Shown: in pieces, positions 2,926-17,957 of the stretch
Numbering within the stretch: position 1 is the stretch's first letter
How the letters are laid out: every line of letters begins with the position of its first letter
The notes under the pieces: generated by a model
The model's database searches: none
Seen by the model: only the letters and a program-made list of their open reading frames with translations
Told to the model about the DNA's origin: nothing
DNA from: Bacillota bacterium
Lineage (GTDB): Bacteria > Bacillota > Desulfotomaculia > Desulfotomaculales > Desulfallaceae
Assembly: GCA_022360435.1 (NCBI GenBank)
Contig: JAKSCU010000494.1
Span: 1-37,210 of the forward strand
Direction of reading: 5' to 3'
Length of the DNA stretch: 37,210 nucleotides
Translations under genes and position numbers: made by a program

Positions 2926-3939
2926 TTATGGTTTCAGTAAAACCTTGAGACTCTCCCCGGAAGCCATGGCGGCGTCAAACCCTGACTGCGCCGCCTCCAG
3001 GGGAAGCCGGTGGGTAATCACTTCCCGCAGCTCGCTTAGCTGGGGCATTAGGCTGACGGCGGTTTTGAAGTCGTTTGGGGTATACACCCTGCTGCCAAGA
3101 ATGTGCAATTCACGCAGGTTAACATCTTGCAGGTCAACTTGCGCCAACTGCCGGTGAACACCCACCACCACAGCGGTACCGCGCGTCCGCAGCAGCCCGG
3201 TCATCTGGGCCGATGTGGCGGCTGCCGCCGCCGCTTCAAACACTACATCCGCTCCGGCGCCCCGGGTTATATCCAACACCTGCTCTTTGACGGACCCGTT
3301 TTGCGGGTCAAGGGTTTTAAAACCCATTTTGCCGGCTTTTCCCAGCCTAAACGGGCTAACCTCACCCACCGCCACCATCTCAGCGCCGGCGGCCCTTGCC
3401 GCCAGGGCCACCATAAGCCCGATGGGCCCCCCGCCCAAAACCACCACCCGGTCGCCGGCTTGCGCGCCGGAACAGTTTACCGCATGCACCCCCACCGCCA
3501 AGGGTTCCGCCAGGGCCGCAACATCCAAACCCATTCCCTCCGGCACCCGGATAAGCTGGGACGGCCGCACTTTTACATATTCGGCAAAGGCCCCGTCGGT
3601 ATCTATGCCGATGAGCCCCAGTTTTTGGCATACATGCGTATACCCACGCCGGCAAGGGTCGCAGGCCCCGCACCAGAGCAACGGATTGACCGCCACCTGG
3701 TCGCCGGCTTTCCAGTCTCCGCCGCACTCGCCTCCCACATCCGCCACCCAGCCCGACATCTCATGGCCCATAACCAGCGGATACTTAACCCTGGGATTTT
3801 TACCGTGGTATATATGCACATCGCTGCCGCAAATACCGCCATAGCCGACCCGCAAAAGGATCTCGCCGGGCCGGGTGTCGGGCAGTGGCACGGTTTGCAT
3901 CTCCAGCTTGCCGGGAGCCGGAATTTTTAATGCTTTCAT
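2926..3939 (-). CDS. Zinc-dependent alcohol/polyol dehydrogenase (MDR family)
   Basis: This medium-chain dehydrogenase is about 337 aa from the ATG at 3939, which follows GGTGG by eight bases; the ORF track's earlier start adds MVGH. The catalytic zinc site is CGSDVH and GHE; the structural zinc site is the four-Cys CGACDPCRRGYTHVC loop. VVLGGGPIGL is the NAD-binding Rossmann motif. It resembles sorbitol, galactitol-1-phosphate, threonine and butanediol dehydrogenases and should oxidise a secondary alcohol to a ketone. It follows dctM by 29 bases. With the SDR it gives the operon two redox steps, which suggests a polyol or a sugar derivative that needs epimerisation or oxidation, or disposal of an aldehyde product. 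Confidence 0.87.
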   Translation of the reverse strand: MKALKIPAPGKLEMQTVPLPDTRPGEILLRVGYGGICGSDVHIYHGKNPRVKYPLVMGHEMSGWVADVGGECGGDWKAGDQVAVNPLLWCGACDPCRRGYTHVCQKLGLIGIDTDGAFAEYVKVRPSQLIRVPEGMGLDVAALAEPLAVGVHAVNCSGAQAGDRVVVLGGGPIGLMVALAARAAGAEMVAVGEVSPFRLGKAGKMGFKTLDPQNGSVKEQVLDITRGAGADVVFEAAAAAATSAQMTGLLRTRGTAVVVGVHRQLAQVDLQDVNLRELHILGSRVYTPNDFKTAVSLMPQLSELREVITHRLPLEAAQSGFDAAMASGESLKVLLKP

Positions 3940-3968
3940 GTGTCCTACCACCTTTTTTGTATTTTGAC

Positions 3969-5261
3969 TTAGCCCGCGTACCCGCCCAAAAGCCTGGGAA
4001 TCAGTAGAACCAGGTCGTCAAAATTCATCAACAAAAGAATCAACAGAATCAGGACTACCATGTACGGCAAGGCGCCCCTGGCCACCCGTTCCAGAGACAA
4101 CCCCGAAAGGTTCATGGCAATGAACAGGTTAACGCCAAGGGGCGGTGAAAGCAGGGCCACCTCATTGACCATAACCCAAATGATGCCGAAAAATATGGGA
4201 TCTATGCCCACCTGGGTTATAACCGGCATGAACACCGGCGCAAGAATAACAATGGTGGCCAGGGTTTCCATAAACATGCCGAGGAAAAAAAGAAGCGCGC
4301 CGATCATCAGCAAAATCAAATATGGCTCGCTGGTAAATCCCAGCATTAACTCCGCCAGTTTCTGCGGTATTTGGTACATGGTGATAAACCGGCCGAACAA
4401 AGTGGAAACACCCACCACGATTATTATCGTGGCCGTTGACATGTTAGTCAGCTTGATGGACTCCCAGAATTCCAGCGGGTTAAGCTTGCGGGTGATAAAA
4501 ATACCCACAAACAACGCGTAAAAAACCGCCACCACCGATGCTTCCACCGGCGTGCATATGCCGGCGTAGATACTGCCCAAAATGACCACGGGAGCCAGCA
4601 GGGACCAGATATTTCTCACCAGGGCCCGGCCAAAATCGGCCAAGGTTTGGGTTTCCATACTTCCTTTAAAGCCCGCGCGCCTGGCATAAATATAAGTGGT
4701 CATCATCAGCACCAGCCCCACCATAAAGCCCGGAAGAAACCCGGCCATGAAAAGAGTCGAAATGGATACATTGGCTATTACCCCGTACACAATCATGGGA
4801 TTGCTGGGTGGAATGAGGATGCCCAGCGTTCCGCCGGTGGCGGTTACTCCGGCCGCATACTCCCGCGAGTATCCTTTTCTTATCATGGAAGGTATCATCA
4901 GGCTGCCCATAGCCGCCACGGTACCGGGACCCGAGCCAATCATGGCGGCGAAAAACATGCATCCCAATATAGTGACCATACCCAGCCCGCCGCGAACACG
5001 GCCTACAATCATGGCGGCTATATCCACAATCTGCGCCGCCATACCGCTCCTTTCCATCAGGGCGCCGGCAAAAATAAATCCCACCACCGCCAGCAGGGGA
5101 AACATATCCGACACTTTCAGCAAGTCCACCGGTATAATACTCAGGGGTATCTCGCTCTGCACCAAGACAACCAGGGACGCAACCCCCAGGGAAACAAAAA
5201 TTGGAGCGCCCAGGGCAAGCATCACAAAAAGAGCAATCCAGATCAACCAGTCCAGAGCCAC
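3969..5261 (-). CDS. dctM: TRAP transporter large permease (DctM)
   Basis: This 430-aa protein is hydrophobic throughout, with roughly twelve membrane segments. It carries DctM motifs such as the early ALGAPIFVSLGVAS, GTLGILIPPSNPMIVYG in the middle and LSPPLGVNLF near the end. It forms the ion-coupled import channel of a tripartite TRAP system with the DctQ and DctP genes next to it. It starts with GTG directly after the dctQ stop codon, so the two are translationally coupled. Known TRAP systems carry organic anions (carboxylates, sialic acids, sugar acids, sulfonates) and some polyols, powered by a sodium or proton gradient. Confidence 0.93.
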   Translation of the reverse strand: MALDWLIWIALFVMLALGAPIFVSLGVASLVVLVQSEIPLSIIPVDLLKVSDMFPLLAVVGFIFAGALMERSGMAAQIVDIAAMIVGRVRGGLGMVTILGCMFFAAMIGSGPGTVAAMGSLMIPSMIRKGYSREYAAGVTATGGTLGILIPPSNPMIVYGVIANVSISTLFMAGFLPGFMVGLVLMMTTYIYARRAGFKGSMETQTLADFGRALVRNIWSLLAPVVILGSIYAGICTPVEASVVAVFYALFVGIFITRKLNPLEFWESIKLTNMSTATIIIVVGVSTLFGRFITMYQIPQKLAELMLGFTSEPYLILLMIGALLFFLGMFMETLATIVILAPVFMPVITQVGIDPIFFGIIWVMVNEVALLSPPLGVNLFIAMNLSGLSLERVARGALPYMVVLILLILLLMNFDDLVLLIPRLLGGYAG

Positions 5262-5762
5262 TTATGACACCCCCCCCAATGTGCCCTGGTCTCCGCCGCG
5301 AAAACGCAGGTACCAACGCTGCACAATCCTGACTATCATCAGCAAGAAAGCTATGGGCAAGGCCACGTAAACATACCGCATGTCCAGCATCAAAGCCCCC
5401 GACACCATCGGTCTCTGGCCCATGTCTTGAATCAGATGCACACCTTTGACCACCACCACAATACTAAAAACAATCCAGATCACATCGGTCAAAACCAGTA
5501 ATAAAGACTGCACTTTTTTGGGCAGCAGGGCTATGTGCGCGGTAACCCTGATATGAATCCCTTTTTGGGCGCCCAGGCTGGCCCCCAGGTAAACCATGTA
5601 CAGGAAAGAAAAGCGGGATACTTCTTCGGCCCAGGCTATGGATATACCCAGAAAATACCGGCATATGACCTGGAGCATCAGAAGGGTCATAATCCAGCAC
5701 AGGAGCGCGCCGCATAAAACTTCCTCAAGGTTATTGAAAAACCACGTCAGTCGCTTAACCAT
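5262..5762 (-). CDS. dctQ: TRAP transporter small permease (DctQ)
   Basis: This 166-aa protein has about four membrane segments and the family motif in which a segment ends ISIAWAEEVSRFSFLY (AWAEExxR), followed by GAQKGIHIRV. It is the small membrane subunit that pairs with DctM. The start is ATG, eight bases after AAGGAG. Its stop codon abuts the dctM GTG start. Between it and dctP lies a strong stem-loop that probably sets the ratio of binding protein to permease. Confidence 0.9.
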   Translation of the reverse strand: MVKRLTWFFNNLEEVLCGALLCWIMTLLMLQVICRYFLGISIAWAEEVSRFSFLYMVYLGASLGAQKGIHIRVTAHIALLPKKVQSLLLVLTDVIWIVFSIVVVVKGVHLIQDMGQRPMVSGALMLDMRYVYVALPIAFLLMIVRIVQRWYLRFRGGDQGTLGGVS

Positions 5763-5855: not shown

Positions 5856-6914
5856 TTAAGCTGTGGGCTTTTCCCGGCCCAGGGTATTCATCATTTGGTC
5901 AAGCAGGCGCACGTCTCCGATAGTGTCATAGAATTTGGGCCATATGGACATGGCGTTTTTCATCCACTGGTCTTCGTCCTCAGGGGTGCCGCTTAATATC
6001 ATGCCCTTTTCCTTAAGTAAATCAAGGGTCTCCTGGTCCATCTTCTGCATCAGCGCGCGGTTGTCCATGGTGGCGTCCCTGCCGGCTTGGATAATGGCTT
6101 CCTGGACATCCGCCGGCTGGCTCTTGAGCCACTGCTCGTTCACCACCACCGGGACGACCCACATTTTATAGTGGATATCGGTGACATATTTTTGCACCTC
6201 GTAAAATTTATTGGTGGCAATAACCGGATAGGGATTTTCCTGGCCGTCCACAACTTTTTGCTGCAGGGCGTTGAATGTCTCGTCCCAGGCAATGGGAACC
6301 GGCTCACAATCCCAGGCCTTAAATGTTTCCACCATGATGGGGTTAACCGGCACCCGAATTTTCAGTCCTTTTAAATCAGCCATGGTATTAACCGGCTTTT
6401 TGCTGTTGGTAAGCACCCGAAATCCTTGCTCAAGCCAGGCTATGGCTACGTTTCCGCTTTCCTCAGCCATAAGTTGGTTAATATCATCCCAGTTTTCATC
6501 GATAACCGTGTAAAACTCGTCCCGGTCCTTAAACAGGTAAGGGAGGTCGAAAACCCCCAGCGAAGGGCTGAAAACACTGGCATTGTTCACCGCCAGCGAA
6601 GTGGCCTGCACTATCTGCTGCTGAACGTCCTGAAAGCCCTTCTGCTCGCTGCCCAACTGGCCGGCCGGGAAAATTTGCACCTCAACCCGTCCCTCGGTGG
6701 CTTTTTCCACCGACTCTTTGAACTTTAACGCCGCCGCCTGGTGCGGATCCGTCATAGCAGTACCGGCGCTATGGGTGTATTTGATTACAATTTTTTCATC
6801 TACCGCGGCTCCCTTGTCCCCTTCTTTTCCATCCTTATCGCCGCCGCACCCGGCCAGCGCCAACACCGCCGCCAGCGCAACCACCAGAGCCGCTACCTGC
6901 CAACCTCTGCTCAT
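5856..6914 (-). CDS. dctP: TRAP transporter solute-binding lipoprotein (DctP)
   Basis: This 352-aa protein has a lipoprotein signal: a hydrophobic stretch, then LALAGC with the lipidated Cys at residue 23, followed by a charged Gly/Lys/Asp linker. The mature part has the DctP fold signatures GLKIRVPVNP, whose Arg binds the carboxylate or other acid group in characterised members, and ALQQKVVDGQENP. It captures the substrate outside the membrane and delivers it to DctQM. The conserved Arg argues for an acidic ligand, so a sugar acid or sulfonate is more likely than a neutral sugar. It follows the transketolase C-half gene by 81 bases. Confidence 0.92.
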   Translation of the reverse strand: MSRGWQVAALVVALAAVLALAGCGGDKDGKEGDKGAAVDEKIVIKYTHSAGTAMTDPHQAAALKFKESVEKATEGRVEVQIFPAGQLGSEQKGFQDVQQQIVQATSLAVNNASVFSPSLGVFDLPYLFKDRDEFYTVIDENWDDINQLMAEESGNVAIAWLEQGFRVLTNSKKPVNTMADLKGLKIRVPVNPIMVETFKAWDCEPVPIAWDETFNALQQKVVDGQENPYPVIATNKFYEVQKYVTDIHYKMWVVPVVVNEQWLKSQPADVQEAIIQAGRDATMDNRALMQKMDQETLDLLKEKGMILSGTPEDEDQWMKNAMSIWPKFYDTIGDVRLLDQMMNTLGREKPTA

Positions 6915-6995: not shown

Positions 6996-7937
6996 TCAGG
7001 CACGGCGCATAATTTTCCTGGCCAGCCCGGCGATATTTTCGGCCGTAAGGTTAAACGCTTTTAACAGTTCATCATAGCTGCACGCCGACTGCCCAAAGGA
7101 GTCTTTTACGCCTATGCTTTCCACCACCACCCCCGGCATGTTTTTTAAAGTCCCGCCAATTGCGTCTCCCAGCCCCCCAATCAAGCTGTGCTCCTCCACG
7201 GTTATTGCTCTGCCGGTCCCACCGGCCAGCGCGCGCACGACTTGCTCCTCAAGGGGCTTAATGGTGCTGACATTGGCCACCGTAAGGTCAATGCCTTCCG
7301 GGGCCAAGGATTCGGCCGCTTCAAGGGCCATGGCAACCATGGTCCCGCAAGCGAAAACCACAATATCCCGGCCCTGGCGGAGAACGTGGATCTTGCCCAC
7401 GGTAAAATCCCGGTCCCGGGGAAAAACCGCCGGCACCTCATCCCGGGGAAGCCGAATGTAAACAGGCCCGTGGTATTTGGCCGCCCACCGCACGGCCTCA
7501 ACAGCCTCCGCGGCGTCGCTGGGCACAATAACGGTCATTCCCGGCAGCGCCCGCATAAGAGCTATGTCCTCGGTTGACTGGTGGGTGCCTCCGTCGGGAT
7601 AATTGGAAAAACCGGCCGACGAGCCGACAAGCTTGACATTGGTGCGACTCAAGGCCACTCCCACCCTTATCTGGTCGTAGGCTCGGCCCACAAGAAAATT
7701 GGCGAATGTGTTAACAAACGGTGTTTTGCCGGTCAAAGCCAGGCCCACTGCCACCGACACCATATTTTGCTCGGCAATGCCCATTTCAAAAAAATTTTCC
7801 GGGTGCGCTTTCTGAACCATGGCCGACCTGGTACCGATGGAAAGGTCGGCATCCAGCACAACACAACTCGGGTTTTCTGCAACCAGTTCAACCAGGGCTT
7901 GCCCGTACGCGTCCCTTACACTTGGCGTTATGGCCAT
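6996..7937 (-). CDS. Transketolase, C-terminal half (pyrimidine-binding and C-terminal domains)
   Basis: This 313-aa protein is the second subunit of a split transketolase. It has the thiamine-activating Glu in GIAEQNM (residue 56), VNTFANFLVGRAYDQIR, PDGGTHQ, and IRLPRD near residue 170. In the region where E. coli transketolase has THDSIGLGEDGPTHQ, and ordinary split enzymes GSHAG before GEDG, this protein reads GSSAGFSNYPDGGTHQ. The His that contacts substrate phosphate (E. coli His461) is therefore Ser107. The activating Glu and the Arg residues remain, so the protein should be active but may accept a different sugar. It starts just after the N-half stop codon and shares its transcript. 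It could be a 1-deoxyxylulose-type or other ThDP enzyme, but the two-subunit arrangement fits transketolase best. Confidence 0.87.
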   Translation of the reverse strand: MAITPSVRDAYGQALVELVAENPSCVVLDADLSIGTRSAMVQKAHPENFFEMGIAEQNMVSVAVGLALTGKTPFVNTFANFLVGRAYDQIRVGVALSRTNVKLVGSSAGFSNYPDGGTHQSTEDIALMRALPGMTVIVPSDAAEAVEAVRWAAKYHGPVYIRLPRDEVPAVFPRDRDFTVGKIHVLRQGRDIVVFACGTMVAMALEAAESLAPEGIDLTVANVSTIKPLEEQVVRALAGGTGRAITVEEHSLIGGLGDAIGGTLKNMPGVVVESIGVKDSFGQSACSYDELLKAFNLTAENIAGLARKIMRRA

Positions 7938-7939
7938 TT

Positions 7940-8776
7940 TTATCTGCCTCCCCCGGAATTTAAGCCTTGGATGGCCTTTTGATATAGCTCGTCGGTTAAA
8001 AACACATGGTGGTAAGAGCCGTCGTTTTCGGCAAACGGAAAACCTTTTCCCTTTATGGTGCGGGCTATGACTGCTTTTGGGCGCCCGCTTACCGCGGCCA
8101 GGCCGTCCAGGGTATCGGCCAGCGCTTTTAGGTCATGCCCGTCTACCTCTGTGACAAACCACCCGAAAGCGGCAAGCTTTTCTTTTATGGAACCCATGTC
8201 CACCAGGTCGCATATCTTTCCGGTGCAGGCAAAGCCGTTGGCGTCAACCACAGCCACCAGATTATCCAGCTTGTAGGCCGAGGCGGCGATGGCCGCCTCC
8301 CATATTTGCCCTTCGTACATTTCACCGTCCCCAAGCAAAACATAAACACAATAAGATTTTTTATCCATTCTGGCCCCCAGGGCCATGCCCAACCCCACCG
8401 AAAGCCCCTGCCCCAGGGACCCGGTACAAACTTCCACCCCAGGCACCCTGTCGTTTTCCGGATGCCCCTGCAGATTGGCGCCCACTTCTTTGAATTTGCC
8501 AAGCTCTTGCCGCGGGAAATATCCCGCCTGGGCCAGAGTGGCGTAAAGCGCCTGGCTGGCATGGCCCTTGCTCAGCAAAAAACGGTCTCTGTCAGGCCAG
8601 TCGGGTTCGGATGGCCGGTGGCTCATCTTGTGGAAGTACAGTGCGGTGACGATATCCGCGCACGAAGCGGAACCGCCCAAATGGCAAGCTTTTTTGGTGC
8701 CGGCCATGTTTACTATGTCCAACCGCACTTGTTTGGCCTTTTCCTCCAGCTCCTTGACTTTTGCCAAAGATATCAT
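7940..8776 (-). CDS. Transketolase, N-terminal half (ThDP-binding domain)
   Basis: This 278-aa subunit carries the thiamine-diphosphate site GDGEMYEGQIWEA followed by VDANGF, plus the SKGHAS and GHPE histidine motifs and TGSLGQGLS. These are all usual for the first domain of transketolase, and the length is normal for the split form. It would move a two-carbon ketol unit between sugars together with its neighbour. A paralogous full pentose-phosphate transketolase is not present in the window, so this may or may not be the cell's only one. It lies about 80 bases downstream of the rpiB-like gene. Confidence 0.9.
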   Translation of the reverse strand: MISLAKVKELEEKAKQVRLDIVNMAGTKKACHLGGSASCADIVTALYFHKMSHRPSEPDWPDRDRFLLSKGHASQALYATLAQAGYFPRQELGKFKEVGANLQGHPENDRVPGVEVCTGSLGQGLSVGLGMALGARMDKKSYCVYVLLGDGEMYEGQIWEAAIAASAYKLDNLVAVVDANGFACTGKICDLVDMGSIKEKLAAFGWFVTEVDGHDLKALADTLDGLAAVSGRPKAVIARTIKGKGFPFAENDGSYHHVFLTDELYQKAIQGLNSGGGR

Positions 8777-8854: not shown

Positions 8855-9307
8855 CTATTGACCAAATCTGGATTCGATATCGGCAATTTTGGCCAGCTTG
8901 GGCAAAGTGGCTCCCCCGCCGTACTCCGTGGTCAAAAAAAGTTTAATTAACATTCTGGCGGCATCAATACCCGTGATCCATGAACCAAGGGCCATAATTT
9001 GGGCGTCATTGTTGAACCTTGACCGGTAGGCCGTGACAATATCCGGGCACTGGGCGGCCCTGATGCCCGGCACCTTGTTGGCGGTTATAGCCATGCCCAC
9101 TCCGGTGCCGCAGATTAGAACTCCGCGGTCGGCCTTGCCTTCCTTTACAGCCAGGGACACATTCAGGGCCACATCGGGGTAGTCCACGGGTTCTATGTTA
9201 TGACACCCGTAATCCTGGATAACAAAACCCAATTCCCGTATATAATCTTTCATATCCTCTTTTAAATTGAAACCAAACTGATCCGAACCAATAGCCACTT
9301 TTAGCAA
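8855..9307 (-). CDS. RpiB/LacAB-family sugar isomerase with altered substrate site
   Basis: I place the start at TTG 9307, not at the ORF-track start: AGGAGG lies seven bases upstream, and the resulting 150-aa protein aligns without gaps to E. coli RpiB. It keeps Asp9 and the catalytic-base Cys66 in LICGTGVGM. However, GSDQFGF has Gln10 where RpiB has His, SRFNND has Asn99 where RpiB has the ring-opening His, and GGATLPKL replaces GGRHxxR, so Arg133 becomes Ala and Arg137 becomes Lys. Those arginines hold the substrate phosphate in RpiB. Aldose-ketose isomerisation is therefore expected, but probably not on ribose 5-phosphate. Relatives with other substrates include LacAB, erythrose-phosphate isomerases and the sulfoerythrose isomerase SqwI. 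It lies beside the split transketolase genes. Confidence 0.85.
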   Translation of the reverse strand: MLKVAIGSDQFGFNLKEDMKDYIRELGFVIQDYGCHNIEPVDYPDVALNVSLAVKEGKADRGVLICGTGVGMAITANKVPGIRAAQCPDIVTAYRSRFNNDAQIMALGSWITGIDAARMLIKLFLTTEYGGGATLPKLAKIADIESRFGQ

Positions 9308-9556: not shown

Positions 9557-10345
9557 TTAGCCGCTAAAACTACCTGGGGGCTCTAAAATACCTTCACAAT
9601 TGTTGCTTTGATCCCGGGTTAATTTGACGCGATATTTATATCTGTCCGCCCTGTATACGTTTATGGAAAGTTCCACCGGCCGGCCTCCGGAGTAAAGCGT
9701 TCTTTCCATGATCAAAATTGGAAAACCAGTCTCCACCCGCAGGTATTGCGCCTCCTTATTGCCAGCGATACCAGCGGCAATAGTCTGTTCCGCCTCTTCC
9801 AGGTTAACGCCAAGCTTCTCCTCGGCCAGTTCGTAAAGGCCGTGCTGCGATATGTCAAATTCAGCCAAGCGTTTTCCATATTCAAAGGGCCAATAACTCC
9901 TTAAATATACAACCGGTTGGTCATTCATCATCTGCAGCTTTTCAACCAGGTACAGCTTTTGTCTGCCGAATACGCTAAGCTGGGGAATTTTTTCTATAGT
10001 TTGTAGCGTTAATTCCACCGGCTCGACGTTTAAAACTTTTGAACTGGGTTTATATCCTCTCTTTCTCATCTCCTCAAAAAAACCGGTCAGCTTGCTTAAA
10101 GTTTCCTCCACGTGCTCTTTTCTTACAAAAGTCCCCTTGCCGGGCAAACGCTCAAGCCAGCCCTCGTAAACCAACTCCGAAATCGCTCTTCTTACGGTGG
10201 TGCTGCTTACACCATATTGTTCCATCAATTGCTTATCGGTGGGAAACTGGTCGCCCAGATTCCATTTTCCCTCTTTTATATCATTGCGCAGATCATTGGT
10301 TATCTGAAAGTGAAGCGGTACAGGCCTTGAGCTTATGGTCCTCAT
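9557..10345 (-). CDS. GntR/HutC-family transcriptional regulator
   Basis: This 262-aa regulator has an N-terminal winged helix-turn-helix (residues about 10-75; GDQFPTDKQLMEQYGVSSTT and GTFVRK) and a C-terminal UTRA effector domain as in HutC, NagR and PhnF. It is the first gene of the catabolic operon, and the most likely effector is the imported substrate or an intermediate. A 14-bp perfect inverted repeat with internal octamer repeats lies immediately upstream and is a good candidate operator, suggesting autoregulation. A 249-bp gap separates it from the isomerase gene; I see no clear second promoter there. Confidence 0.88.
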   Translation of the reverse strand: MRTISSRPVPLHFQITNDLRNDIKEGKWNLGDQFPTDKQLMEQYGVSSTTVRRAISELVYEGWLERLPGKGTFVRKEHVEETLSKLTGFFEEMRKRGYKPSSKVLNVEPVELTLQTIEKIPQLSVFGRQKLYLVEKLQMMNDQPVVYLRSYWPFEYGKRLAEFDISQHGLYELAEEKLGVNLEEAEQTIAAGIAGNKEAQYLRVETGFPILIMERTLYSGGRPVELSINVYRADRYKYRVKLTRDQSNNCEGILEPPGSFSG

Positions 10346-10364
10346 TCTCCACCAACCTTTCTCA

Positions 10365-10426
10365 AATTATACAAAGTTACAAAGTTACAAAGTTACAATA
10401 TTACAATATTGCAACTTTGTATAATT
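10365..10426 (-). promoter_or_regulatory. Candidate GntR operator/promoter with octamer repeats
   Basis: AATTATACAAAGTT at 10365-10378 is the exact reverse complement of AACTTTGTATAATT at 10413-10426. Between them the octamer ACAAAGTT is repeated in tandem and followed by two copies of ACAATATT. On the minus strand the repeat contains TATAAT just before the gntR ribosome binding site, so operator and -10 box overlap. GntR proteins typically bind GT-N-AC inverted sites, which fits TTGTAAC. Autorepression is inferred. Confidence 0.6.
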
Positions 10427-10490
10427 ATATTTTTTGTATGGACTATTGTCAATAACTTTGATGTTATTTTTCTGCGAATTTATACAATTT

Positions 10491-16418: not shown

Positions 16419-17066
16419 CTAACTTTTGGGTACCCTGGCCCAGTCGGTTAAAAATTTTTCAATTCCCAGGTCGGTAAGGGGGTGTTTGAGCATTTGCATC
16501 AACACTTTATAGGGGACAGTGGCGACGTGTGCGCCCGCCAGGGCGGATTGGGTGACGTGCAGCGGGTGCCTGATGCTGGCGGATATTATCTGCGCATCCA
16601 GGTTGTGAATATCGAACACGGAGACTATTTGTTCCACCAGCGCTATCCCGTCATGGCCGATATCGTCCATGCGACCGACAAAGGGGCTGATATAGGCGGC
16701 TCCGGCCAGGGCGGCCATCAGGGCCTGATTGGCGGAGAAAACCAGGGTAACGTTGGTTTTGACACCTTCCCGCGACAATACGCTTACGGCTTTCAAACCT
16801 TCAGCATTCATGGGAATCTTGACCACAATGTTGGTGTGTATGGCCGCCAGTTCCCGAGACTCTTGGATCATGGGGCCGGCCTGGGTGCTGACCGCCTCGG
16901 CGCTCACCGGGCCGTCGATAATGGAAACAATCTCCCGGACCACTCCCACAAAGTCCCGGCCTTCCCGGGCAATCAGTGACGGGTTGGTGGTTACCCCGCT
17001 AATTACACCCAGTTCGGCTGCGGCTTTAATCTCAGCTACGTTGGCGGTATCGATAAACAGTTTGAT
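16419..17066 (-). CDS. tal: Transaldolase (TalC/FSA-type) with non-AUG start
   Basis: The ORF track begins at an internal GTG (16949), but the frame stays open upstream and reads [19 protein letters not shown] then [12 protein letters not shown], the conserved start of the TalC/FSA family. The family's initiator Met falls on ATC at 17064-17066, nine bases after a strong GGGGAGG; the only other in-frame choice in range is ATT at 17070-17072. There is no in-frame ATG, GTG or TTG. The 215-aa protein has the Schiff-base Lys in VVKIPMN and [11 protein letters not shown], with Phe where fructose-6-phosphate aldolase has Tyr, so transaldolase is more likely. It lies downstream of fba, in the non-oxidative pentose phosphate pathway. 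Confidence 0.88.
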
Positions 17067-17102: not shown

Positions 17103-17957
17103 CTATACTCGTCCGGAGCTGCCGAAAAGCCTAATTTTTTCGCTGATCAGTTCCACCGCCGCTTCCCGGGCCGGGCCCAGTATCTTGCGCGGGTCAATTT
17201 CTTCGGGGTTGTCGGTAACAACCTGCCGGCAGCAATCAACGAAAGCTTCCCGGATGTTGGTGTCAATGTTGATTTTGCGTACCCCCAGGCGGATGGCCTC
17301 CCGGATGGCGTCGCCGGGAACGCCGGAGGAGCCGTGCAGCACAATGGGGATGCCGACCAGGGAGCGTATTTTCTCCAGCCGGGCGAAATCCAGTTTGGGT
17401 TCGCCCTTGTAACGCCCGTGGGCGGTACCTATGGCCACGGCCAGAGCGTCCACGCCGGTTTCCGCCACGAACCGGCCGGCCTCGTCGGGGTCGGTGAAGA
17501 AAGCGTCGGCGTCATCAACGTGGATATCGTCCTCGGTGCCGCCGATTTTGCCTAGTTCGGCCTCCACGGATACGCCAACCGGGCGGGCCGCCGCCATCAC
17601 CTGTTTGGTAAGGGCAATGTTGTCATCCAGCGAGTGTTTGGAACCGTCGATCATTACGGATGAAAAGCCGGACCGTATGCAGCGCATCACCTGTTCAAAG
17701 CTGGTGCCGTGGTCAAGGTGCAGGGCCACCGGCACATCCGCCATGGAAGCGGCCACATTGGCCATGGCGGTTATGTATTCAATGCCGGCGTATTTAATGG
17801 CGCCCTGGCTGGCCTGCATAATCACCGGCGCCCGCTCGGCCCGAGCGGCGGCGGCAATGGCTTGCACTATTTCCATGTTGTTGCAGTTAAAAGCGCCCAC
17901 GGCATAACCGCCGGCCTCGGCTTCCTTTAGTAAATCGCTGATGGGTACCAAACCCAT
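17103..17957 (-). CDS. fba: Class II fructose-1,6-bisphosphate aldolase
   Basis: This 284-aa zinc aldolase of central glycolysis/gluconeogenesis interconverts fructose 1,6-bisphosphate with DHAP and glyceraldehyde 3-phosphate. Zinc-site motifs are HLDHG (about residue 80), GTAHG and LHGSSG, and the phosphate/substrate loop is KINIDTNIR, as in FBA rather than GatY. The start is ATG after GAGGAGG. It precedes transaldolase by 36 bases, so the two are co-transcribed. The operon paralogue at 33-860 shares GTAHG-x-YKG but differs in the substrate loop. Confidence 0.93.
   Translation of the reverse strand: MGLVPISDLLKEAEAGGYAVGAFNCNNMEIVQAIAAAARAERAPVIMQASQGAIKYAGIEYITAMANVAASMADVPVALHLDHGTSFEQVMRCIRSGFSSVMIDGSKHSLDDNIALTKQVMAAARPVGVSVEAELGKIGGTEDDIHVDDADAFFTDPDEAGRFVAETGVDALAVAIGTAHGRYKGEPKLDFARLEKIRSLVGIPIVLHGSSGVPGDAIREAIRLGVRKINIDTNIREAFVDCCRQVVTDNPEEIDPRKILGPAREAAVELISEKIRLFGSSGRV

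Follow-up and report, generated by a model that had tools for sequence, protein, structure and literature searches.

The stretch analysed here (the window; 37,210 nucleotides of a Bacillota contig) encodes on its minus strand, at 8855-9307, an RpiB-like isomerase that keeps the catalytic base of ribose-5-phosphate (R5P) isomerase and has a different substrate pocket. The locus raises the question of which substrate such a protein would accept, and how it might serve the operon in which its gene lies.

The window gene encodes a protein of the RpiB fold

The frame comprises 150 codons plus a stop and starts at TTG 9307, which is preceded by a strong ribosome site, GGGAGGAGGAAAAGTT. From this start, as the initial annotation had proposed, residues 1-147 align with residues 1-147 of E. 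coli RpiB. The protein belongs to the LacAB_rpiB family: it scores 154 bits in Pfam and has the family fold together with Asp9, Cys66 and Thr68. Structure prediction, suggested as a check at the outset, returned an RpiB fold: the AlphaFold model, built with 25 aligned relatives, has a mean pLDDT of 96.2, and its closest fold is C. thermocellum RpiB (3HE8; TM 0.96, 46% identity), with E. coli 2VVR also at TM 0.96. By sequence, too, the best solved-chain matches are C. thermocellum RpiB (3HE8/3PH3).

Curated models divide the family further. The NCBIfam rpiB score, 149.5 against a cut-off of 138.65, passes, and it is uninformative for the window protein because two tetrose-type proteins (defined below; L057 and L067, 164-169 bits) pass the same cut-off. 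LacA/LacB membership fails, the NCBIfam models giving 63-102 bits against cut-offs of 164-325 and the gene being single. Judged by the DerI model (NF051858), where it reaches 99.8 bits against a cut-off of 240, the protein should not be labelled DerI.

The pocket departs from that of canonical RpiB

The window protein retains Asp9, Tyr43, Cys66, Thr68 and Asn100. The initial annotation had correctly read Asp9 and Cys66 as kept and Gln10, Asn99, Ala133 and Lys137 as altered; three further linked changes are Arg95, Gln103 (canonical Asn) and Thr134 (canonical His), and the conserved histidines lost are three (10, 99 and 134) rather than the two first counted. In 41 canonical RpiBs, taken from genomes both related and more distant, His10, His99, His134 and Arg137 are each present in all 41 and Arg133 in 40; Asn103/Arg137, which in the window protein are Gln103/Lys137, occur in 40-41, and position 95 varies without ever being Arg. 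Because positions 10, 99, 134 and 137 are invariant in this set, we do not regard the changes as chance drift. With Asn in place of the ring-opening His99, and Gln, Ala and Lys in place of the phosphate clamp His10/Arg133/Arg137, the protein should not, on its residues, be filed as RpiB. The same genome encodes on contig C53 a canonical RpiB (203.8 bits) with all canonical pocket residues, which makes the window gene a paralogue with freedom to change.

Published work indicates what single changes of this kind do. His99 of E. coli and His102 of M. tuberculosis open the furanose ring (PMC3755991, PMC4783025), and E. coli H99N, the same substitution as Asn99 of the window protein, keeps its Km with a 26-fold lower kcat (PMC4783025). 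Leishmania RpiB, which also accepts D-ribose, holds the phosphate with His11, Arg137 and Arg141, equivalent to window positions 10, 133 and 137; its H11N mutant is near wild type and its H102N mutant inactive (PMC4783025). Two of the changes flagged initially are thus singly tolerated in some enzymes, so that their effect is not all-or-nothing.

A different departure was seen in canonical-like RpiBs of loci L045, L047, L048, L050 and L054 (at about 1501-1941 in each), where Asp stands in place of Cys66 and Ala in place of Thr68, with His10, His99, Arg133 and Arg137 kept; at least two of the genomes (G147 and G185) also encode a tetrose-type RpiB-like gene.

Tetrose-type relatives and the Coccidioides pocket

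A search of 399 genomes of the phylum recovered RpiB-like proteins that are 46-52% identical and have Ser99, Gln103, Ser134 and Lys137. We use the term tetrose-type for 24 RpiB-like proteins, the function being assigned by a curated model for the EryI/DerI members only and by neighbourhood for the others. They share the loss of His99, His134 and Arg137; Gln103, Ser99 and Ser134 are each present in 24/24, Arg95 in 23/24 and Lys137 in 20/24, position 137 being Lys or Asn and position 133 Arg, Asn, Gly or Pro. EryI/DerI proteins have Ser, Ser and Asn at positions 10, 99 and 137, and hence lack His10, His99 and Arg137; the DerI cut-off of 240 is passed by L074 (257.6 bits) and L073 (255.7 bits). 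Many of the 24 adjoin DhaK/DhaL kinases or EryH. The neighbourhoods, those of plasmid relatives among them, include three kinds: genes adjoining DhaK/DhaL kinases of the erythrulose-kinase type, EryI/DerI-type loci adjoining EryH (triose-isomerase type), and loci (L064, L065, L067-L070) with a split transketolase, a transaldolase-family protein, a PHP protein and an aldolase, not every gene being found in each. An RpiB-like gene and a split transketolase recur jointly at these last loci and at L099.

The third kind deserves its own description. The cluster at L064, L065, L067, L068, L069 and L070 combines a transaldolase-family protein of ~400 aa, a split transketolase, an RpiB-like protein with Ser99/Lys137 and a PHP protein, and some copies add a class II aldolase, a second split transketolase or an aldehyde dehydrogenase. 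It looks like an undescribed pathway.

Of the tetrose-type residue set, Gln103, Lys137 and Arg95 are present in the window protein, while Asn99 and Thr134 replace Ser, Thr134 being chemically akin to the invariant Ser134. That Asn99 and Thr134 match neither the canonical nor the tetrose group exactly speaks against a four-carbon (C4) substrate. The closest parallel in pocket among solved proteins is Coccidioides immitis RpiB (3QD5/3SDW), whose Asp17, Arg105, Ser109, Ala144, Ser145 and Lys148 align with window positions 10, 95, 99, 133, 134 and 137. This enzyme binds phosphate through Ser109, Ser145 and Lys148, possibly with a charge relay to Arg105, and its authors suspected a shorter-chain substrate (PMC3212906). 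By alignment, Arg95/Asn99/Gln103/Ala133/Thr134/Lys137 of the window protein is a variation on the Coccidioides pocket. A plain loss of the phosphate pocket was rejected, 3SDW binding phosphate with the same Ala/Lys pair. The initial annotation had also held that finding the same residues in a characterised RpiB would argue against a change of substrate, and the Coccidioides enzyme goes half of that way, having the equivalents of Ala133 and Lys137 along with Asp10 and Ser99. RpiB pockets reshaped for shorter substrates have been described before, and the window pocket has probably been rebuilt in this known direction, towards a four-carbon, acyclic substrate, rather than merely stripped of phosphate binding.

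Ancestry of the window protein

With all columns, the window protein groups with the tetrose-type proteins (94/98); without the seven pocket columns it falls on the canonical RpiB side (94/91). The second placement speaks against the C4 reading, but AU tests reject neither (p 0.23 and 0.38), and the terminal branch is long (1.45-1.49). A convergent, independent rebuilding of the pocket is possible. The search for homologues sharing the altered residues, also suggested initially, returned no orthologue in 100 relatives, 399 phylum genomes and 113 class genomes, and the combination Asn99/Ala133/Thr134 occurs in the window protein only, among the proteins compared. Scans for close relatives found only a Solobacterium RpiB with canonical residues in genome contigs and none in viral contigs. 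The exact residue set and operon are thus not found elsewhere in what was searched and, with no orthologue carrying its residues, no independent neighbourhood backs a C4 reading of the window protein.

The operon pairs the isomerase with a split transketolase

All genes of the operon lie on the minus strand in the order GntR, RpiB-like protein, transketolase N and C subunits, TRAP P/Q/M, zinc dehydrogenase, PFK, SDR and aldolase. The GntR/UTRA (HutC-type) regulator (9557-10345; profile match) comes first, 249 bp upstream of the RpiB-like gene, and the gaps 3' of the latter are 0-93 bp. Upstream of gntR, a consensus sigma-70 promoter on the minus strand (10424-10452; TTGACA-17-TATAAT, 12/12) overlaps AT-rich ACAAAGTT repeats; the tandem repeats, together with AT-rich imperfect palindromes, occupy 10363-10452 and are a possible GntR operator.

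The split transketolase consists of an N-terminal (ThDP) subunit (7940-8776; PF00456; PRK05899.2-5 positions 13-280) and, 2 bp after it, a C-terminal subunit (6996-7937), with a paralogue of 51% on contig C438 of the same genome. The TRAP importer comprises the solute-binding protein DctP (5856-6914; closest solved chains 4pfr and 24gg/24gh), the small permease DctQ (5262-5762) and the large permease DctM (3969-5261), the permeases by profile match. There follow a zinc dehydrogenase resembling Tdh, IolM and L-idonate 5-dehydrogenase (2926-3951; profile match), a PFK-family kinase of the PPi-type PRK14072 subfamily (1687-2886; 379.9 bits against a cut-off of 273), an SDR dehydrogenase (900-1673), whose closest solved relative, 1vl8, is annotated as gluconate 5-dehydrogenase, and a class II ketose-bisphosphate aldolase (33-860; profile match). 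The operon runs past the contig end, with a further ATG at position 12, and a contig-overlap search for its continuation found only the window itself. Because its G+C (0.548) resembles that of the rest of the window (0.557), there is no composition sign of recent acquisition.

Several observations accompany these genes. 4pfr and 24gg/24gh match the TRAP receptor with 256 and 236 bits, against 146 for the next chain, and the neighbouring PDB entries 24gc-24gf are labelled dihydroxypropanesulfonate TRAP transporter. The same genome (L079, G000:C13) and another one (L080, G157:C31) each contain a second TRAP, whose receptor is 63-65% identical to that of the window and whose neighbours are a short conserved ORF and an iron alcohol dehydrogenase; a TRAP-based search for sister operons yielded only TRAP paralogues adjoining iron alcohol dehydrogenases or other genes. 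The operon aldolase has no C-terminal GSxxR segment, which a second aldolase (17103-17957) does have; the missing tail may bear on the distal phosphate, and our literature search returned no paper backing Arg280 of class II aldolase as the reason for it. A transaldolase frame at 16419-17066 has its full length of ~215 aa only when read from ATC 17066 or another non-standard codon close by; the called ORF has 176 aa.

A proposed four-carbon isomerase serving transketolase

The intact base, the rebuilt pocket, the separate canonical RpiB and the split transketolase in the operon together support a substrate other than R5P. To this extent the substrate switch proposed initially is supported; the changes are not unique, other proteins sharing them. 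Both operon copies look specialised because the genome has a canonical RpiB and another transketolase of the same type. Our preferred reading, held tentatively and a little short of an even chance, is that the window protein is an acyclic C4 aldose-ketose isomerase serving transketolase. The paralogue's pocket would have been remodelled for an aldose/ketose pair that is acyclic, has four carbons and ends in an anionic group. As in known RpiB enzymes, Asp9, Cys66 and Thr68 would still drive isomerisation through a cis-enediol; His99 would be dispensable because, on chemical grounds, no furanose ring can form from a C4 sugar whose C4 is blocked. The alignments suggest that Arg95, Asn99, Thr134 and Lys137 bind the anionic end of the substrate at a site shifted inwards by one carbon, on the model of Ser109/Ser145/Lys148 (with Arg105) holding phosphate in Coccidioides RpiB.

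In the pathway that we envisage from the operon, an anionic substrate would be imported via TRAP and oxidised to a ketose by the zinc dehydrogenase and the SDR; the split transketolase would move a C2 unit to glyceraldehyde-3-phosphate, leaving a C4 aldose, which the RpiB-like protein would convert to the ketose for a second cut by transketolase. This double-cut logic would be that of SqwGH/SqwI in sulfo-TK. As to the end group, a sugar acid appears preferable to a sulfonate, one example being a 5-keto-hexonate that would yield a tetruronate and, in the end, glyoxylate.

Genome G195 contains a transketolase pair related to that of the window (57-59%), in an operon with TRAP, a Tdh/IolM/idonate-dehydrogenase-like zinc dehydrogenase, an FGGY kinase resembling gluconokinase and a tartronate-semialdehyde reductase that scores 525 bits (cut-off 397); by analogy this operon would point to sugar acids. 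The SDR and zinc dehydrogenase of the window resemble gluconate/idonate 5-dehydrogenases, among others. Cutting of a C4-keto pentonate by transketolase would yield tartronate semialdehyde; a C5-keto hexonate would yield a tetruronate, which would need an isomerase before the second cut, and this the window gene could supply. Tartaric-acid formation in Gluconobacter is a known case of 5-ketogluconate being cleaved by transketolase. We favour a carboxylate over a sulfonate, with a phosphate close, an end-group preference that comes mainly from one analogous operon. A complete carboxylate counterpart of sulfo-TK, in which a TRAP-imported hexonate becomes a 5-keto acid and two transketolase cuts, with isomerisation of the tetruronate, give two xylulose-5-phosphates and glyoxylate, the pocket having arisen from RpiB independently of EryI/DerI, is rather unlikely. 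The G195 operon is of interest in itself: at L090:6632-16256, TRAP, zinc dehydrogenase, split transketolase (57-59%), reductase and kinase genes form one operon, a candidate pentonate pathway via transketolase cleavage.

Other readings of the same data were weighed. The window protein could be an ordinary tetrulose-4-phosphate isomerase, taking erythrulose-4-phosphate to erythrose-4-phosphate in the manner of EryI/LerI and feeding the transketolase, PFK and aldolase of the operon, which are able to recycle sugar phosphates. Its residue pattern, with Arg95/Lys137 as in DhaK-linked and EryI proteins, and the binding of phosphate by the same positions in 3SDW/3QD5 make this a real, if minority, possibility, against which stand the DerI score far below its cut-off, a visible operon that encodes no DhaK, EryA or EryH partner, and a TRAP importer, which suggests that what is imported is an anion, as erythritol and erythrulose are not. 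The absence of a DhaK-type kinase from the visible operon counts against the preferred reading as well, and genes are missing where the operon runs off the contig. A slow or relaxed R5P isozyme in an operon of pentose-phosphate type would fit the rpiB cut-off, the E. coli H99N and Leishmania H11N data (PMC4783025) and the canonical-side placement once pocket columns are removed, but five pocket positions changed together, the dead Leishmania H102N, the canonical RpiB encoded elsewhere and the two tetrose-type proteins above the rpiB cut-off render it unlikely. Slightly less likely again is that the protein isomerises a hexuronate or an unphosphorylated sugar and binds no terminal tetrahedral anion: His10, Arg133 and His134 are lost, the uronate ketol-isomerase 4u8f, solved with tartrate, is a distant member of the fold, and Leishmania RpiB takes D-ribose, yet Lys137 is still basic, Arg95 is gained, and the Coccidioides protein binds phosphate with a similar residue set. 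A decaying, non-functional paralogue, suggested by the long end branch and the lack of an orthologue, is very improbable given the intact frame, strong ribosome site, kept catalytic residues, pLDDT of 96 and the place of the gene ahead of all other enzyme genes in a closely spaced operon.

For annotation, the curated rpiB model scores the window protein and some probable four-carbon isomerases as RpiB, so that pathways can be misread; in the compared set, positions 95, 99, 103, 134 and 137 separate canonical from probable C4 enzymes and could serve for re-annotation of the family. If the carboxylate transketolase pathway is true, the C2-by-C2 dismantling known for sulfoquinovose would be a more general route for acid sugars.

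Comparison with known systems

LacA/LacB galactose-6-phosphate isomerase shares Pfam family and fold with the window protein; it differs in its two subunits, another pocket, the LacB C-terminal helix and model cut-offs far above the window scores. RpiB (C. thermocellum 3HE8, E. coli 2VVR) is alike in fold, length and Asp9/Tyr43/Cys66/Thr68/Asn100, whereas the window protein lacks His10, His99, His134, Arg133 and Arg137 in a genome that already has an RpiB.

In sulfo-TK, the gene for the putative 4-deoxy-4-sulfoerythrose isomerase SqwI, a member of PF02502, immediately follows those for SqwGH (PMC11659671, PMC9594981), and the window likewise has a PF02502 gene beside a split transketolase. Sulfo-EMP2 uses PF00365 and PF01116 enzymes, and the operon has these Pfam families of SqiK and SqiA. 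Unlike sulfo-TK, import here is by TRAP and not ABC. The sulfosugar role considered initially appears less likely: the genome has no GH31 (YihQ, sulfoquinovosidase) gene, with control matches in E. coli and others, and the visible operon no SqvD-type gene. A genome search for SqvB (PF16161) gave no match, but neither did any control, and it carries no weight. With sulfoquinovosidase absent, a SqwI label would not be warranted. In our literature searches, papers naming SqwI gave no residue data, and those on DHPS TRAP receptors, apulose transketolase and split transketolases gave nothing usable.

Among C4 enzymes, a close known system is EryI/DerI D-erythrulose-4-phosphate isomerase (Rhizobium L074; closely similar PDB 5IFZ, Brucella). 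It resembles the window protein in lacking His10/His99/His134/Arg137 and in having Gln103, Arg95 and the catalytic Cys, and differs in Ser99/Arg133/Ser134/Asn137 (Asn/Ala/Thr/Lys in the window), 30% identity and an erythritol-locus context. Coccidioides immitis RpiB, a fungal protein without an operon that is 37% identical in the structural match and differs in Asp10, Ser99 and Ser134, shares with the window protein the equivalents of Ala133, Lys137 and Arg95, Gln103 and the absence of a ring-opening His.
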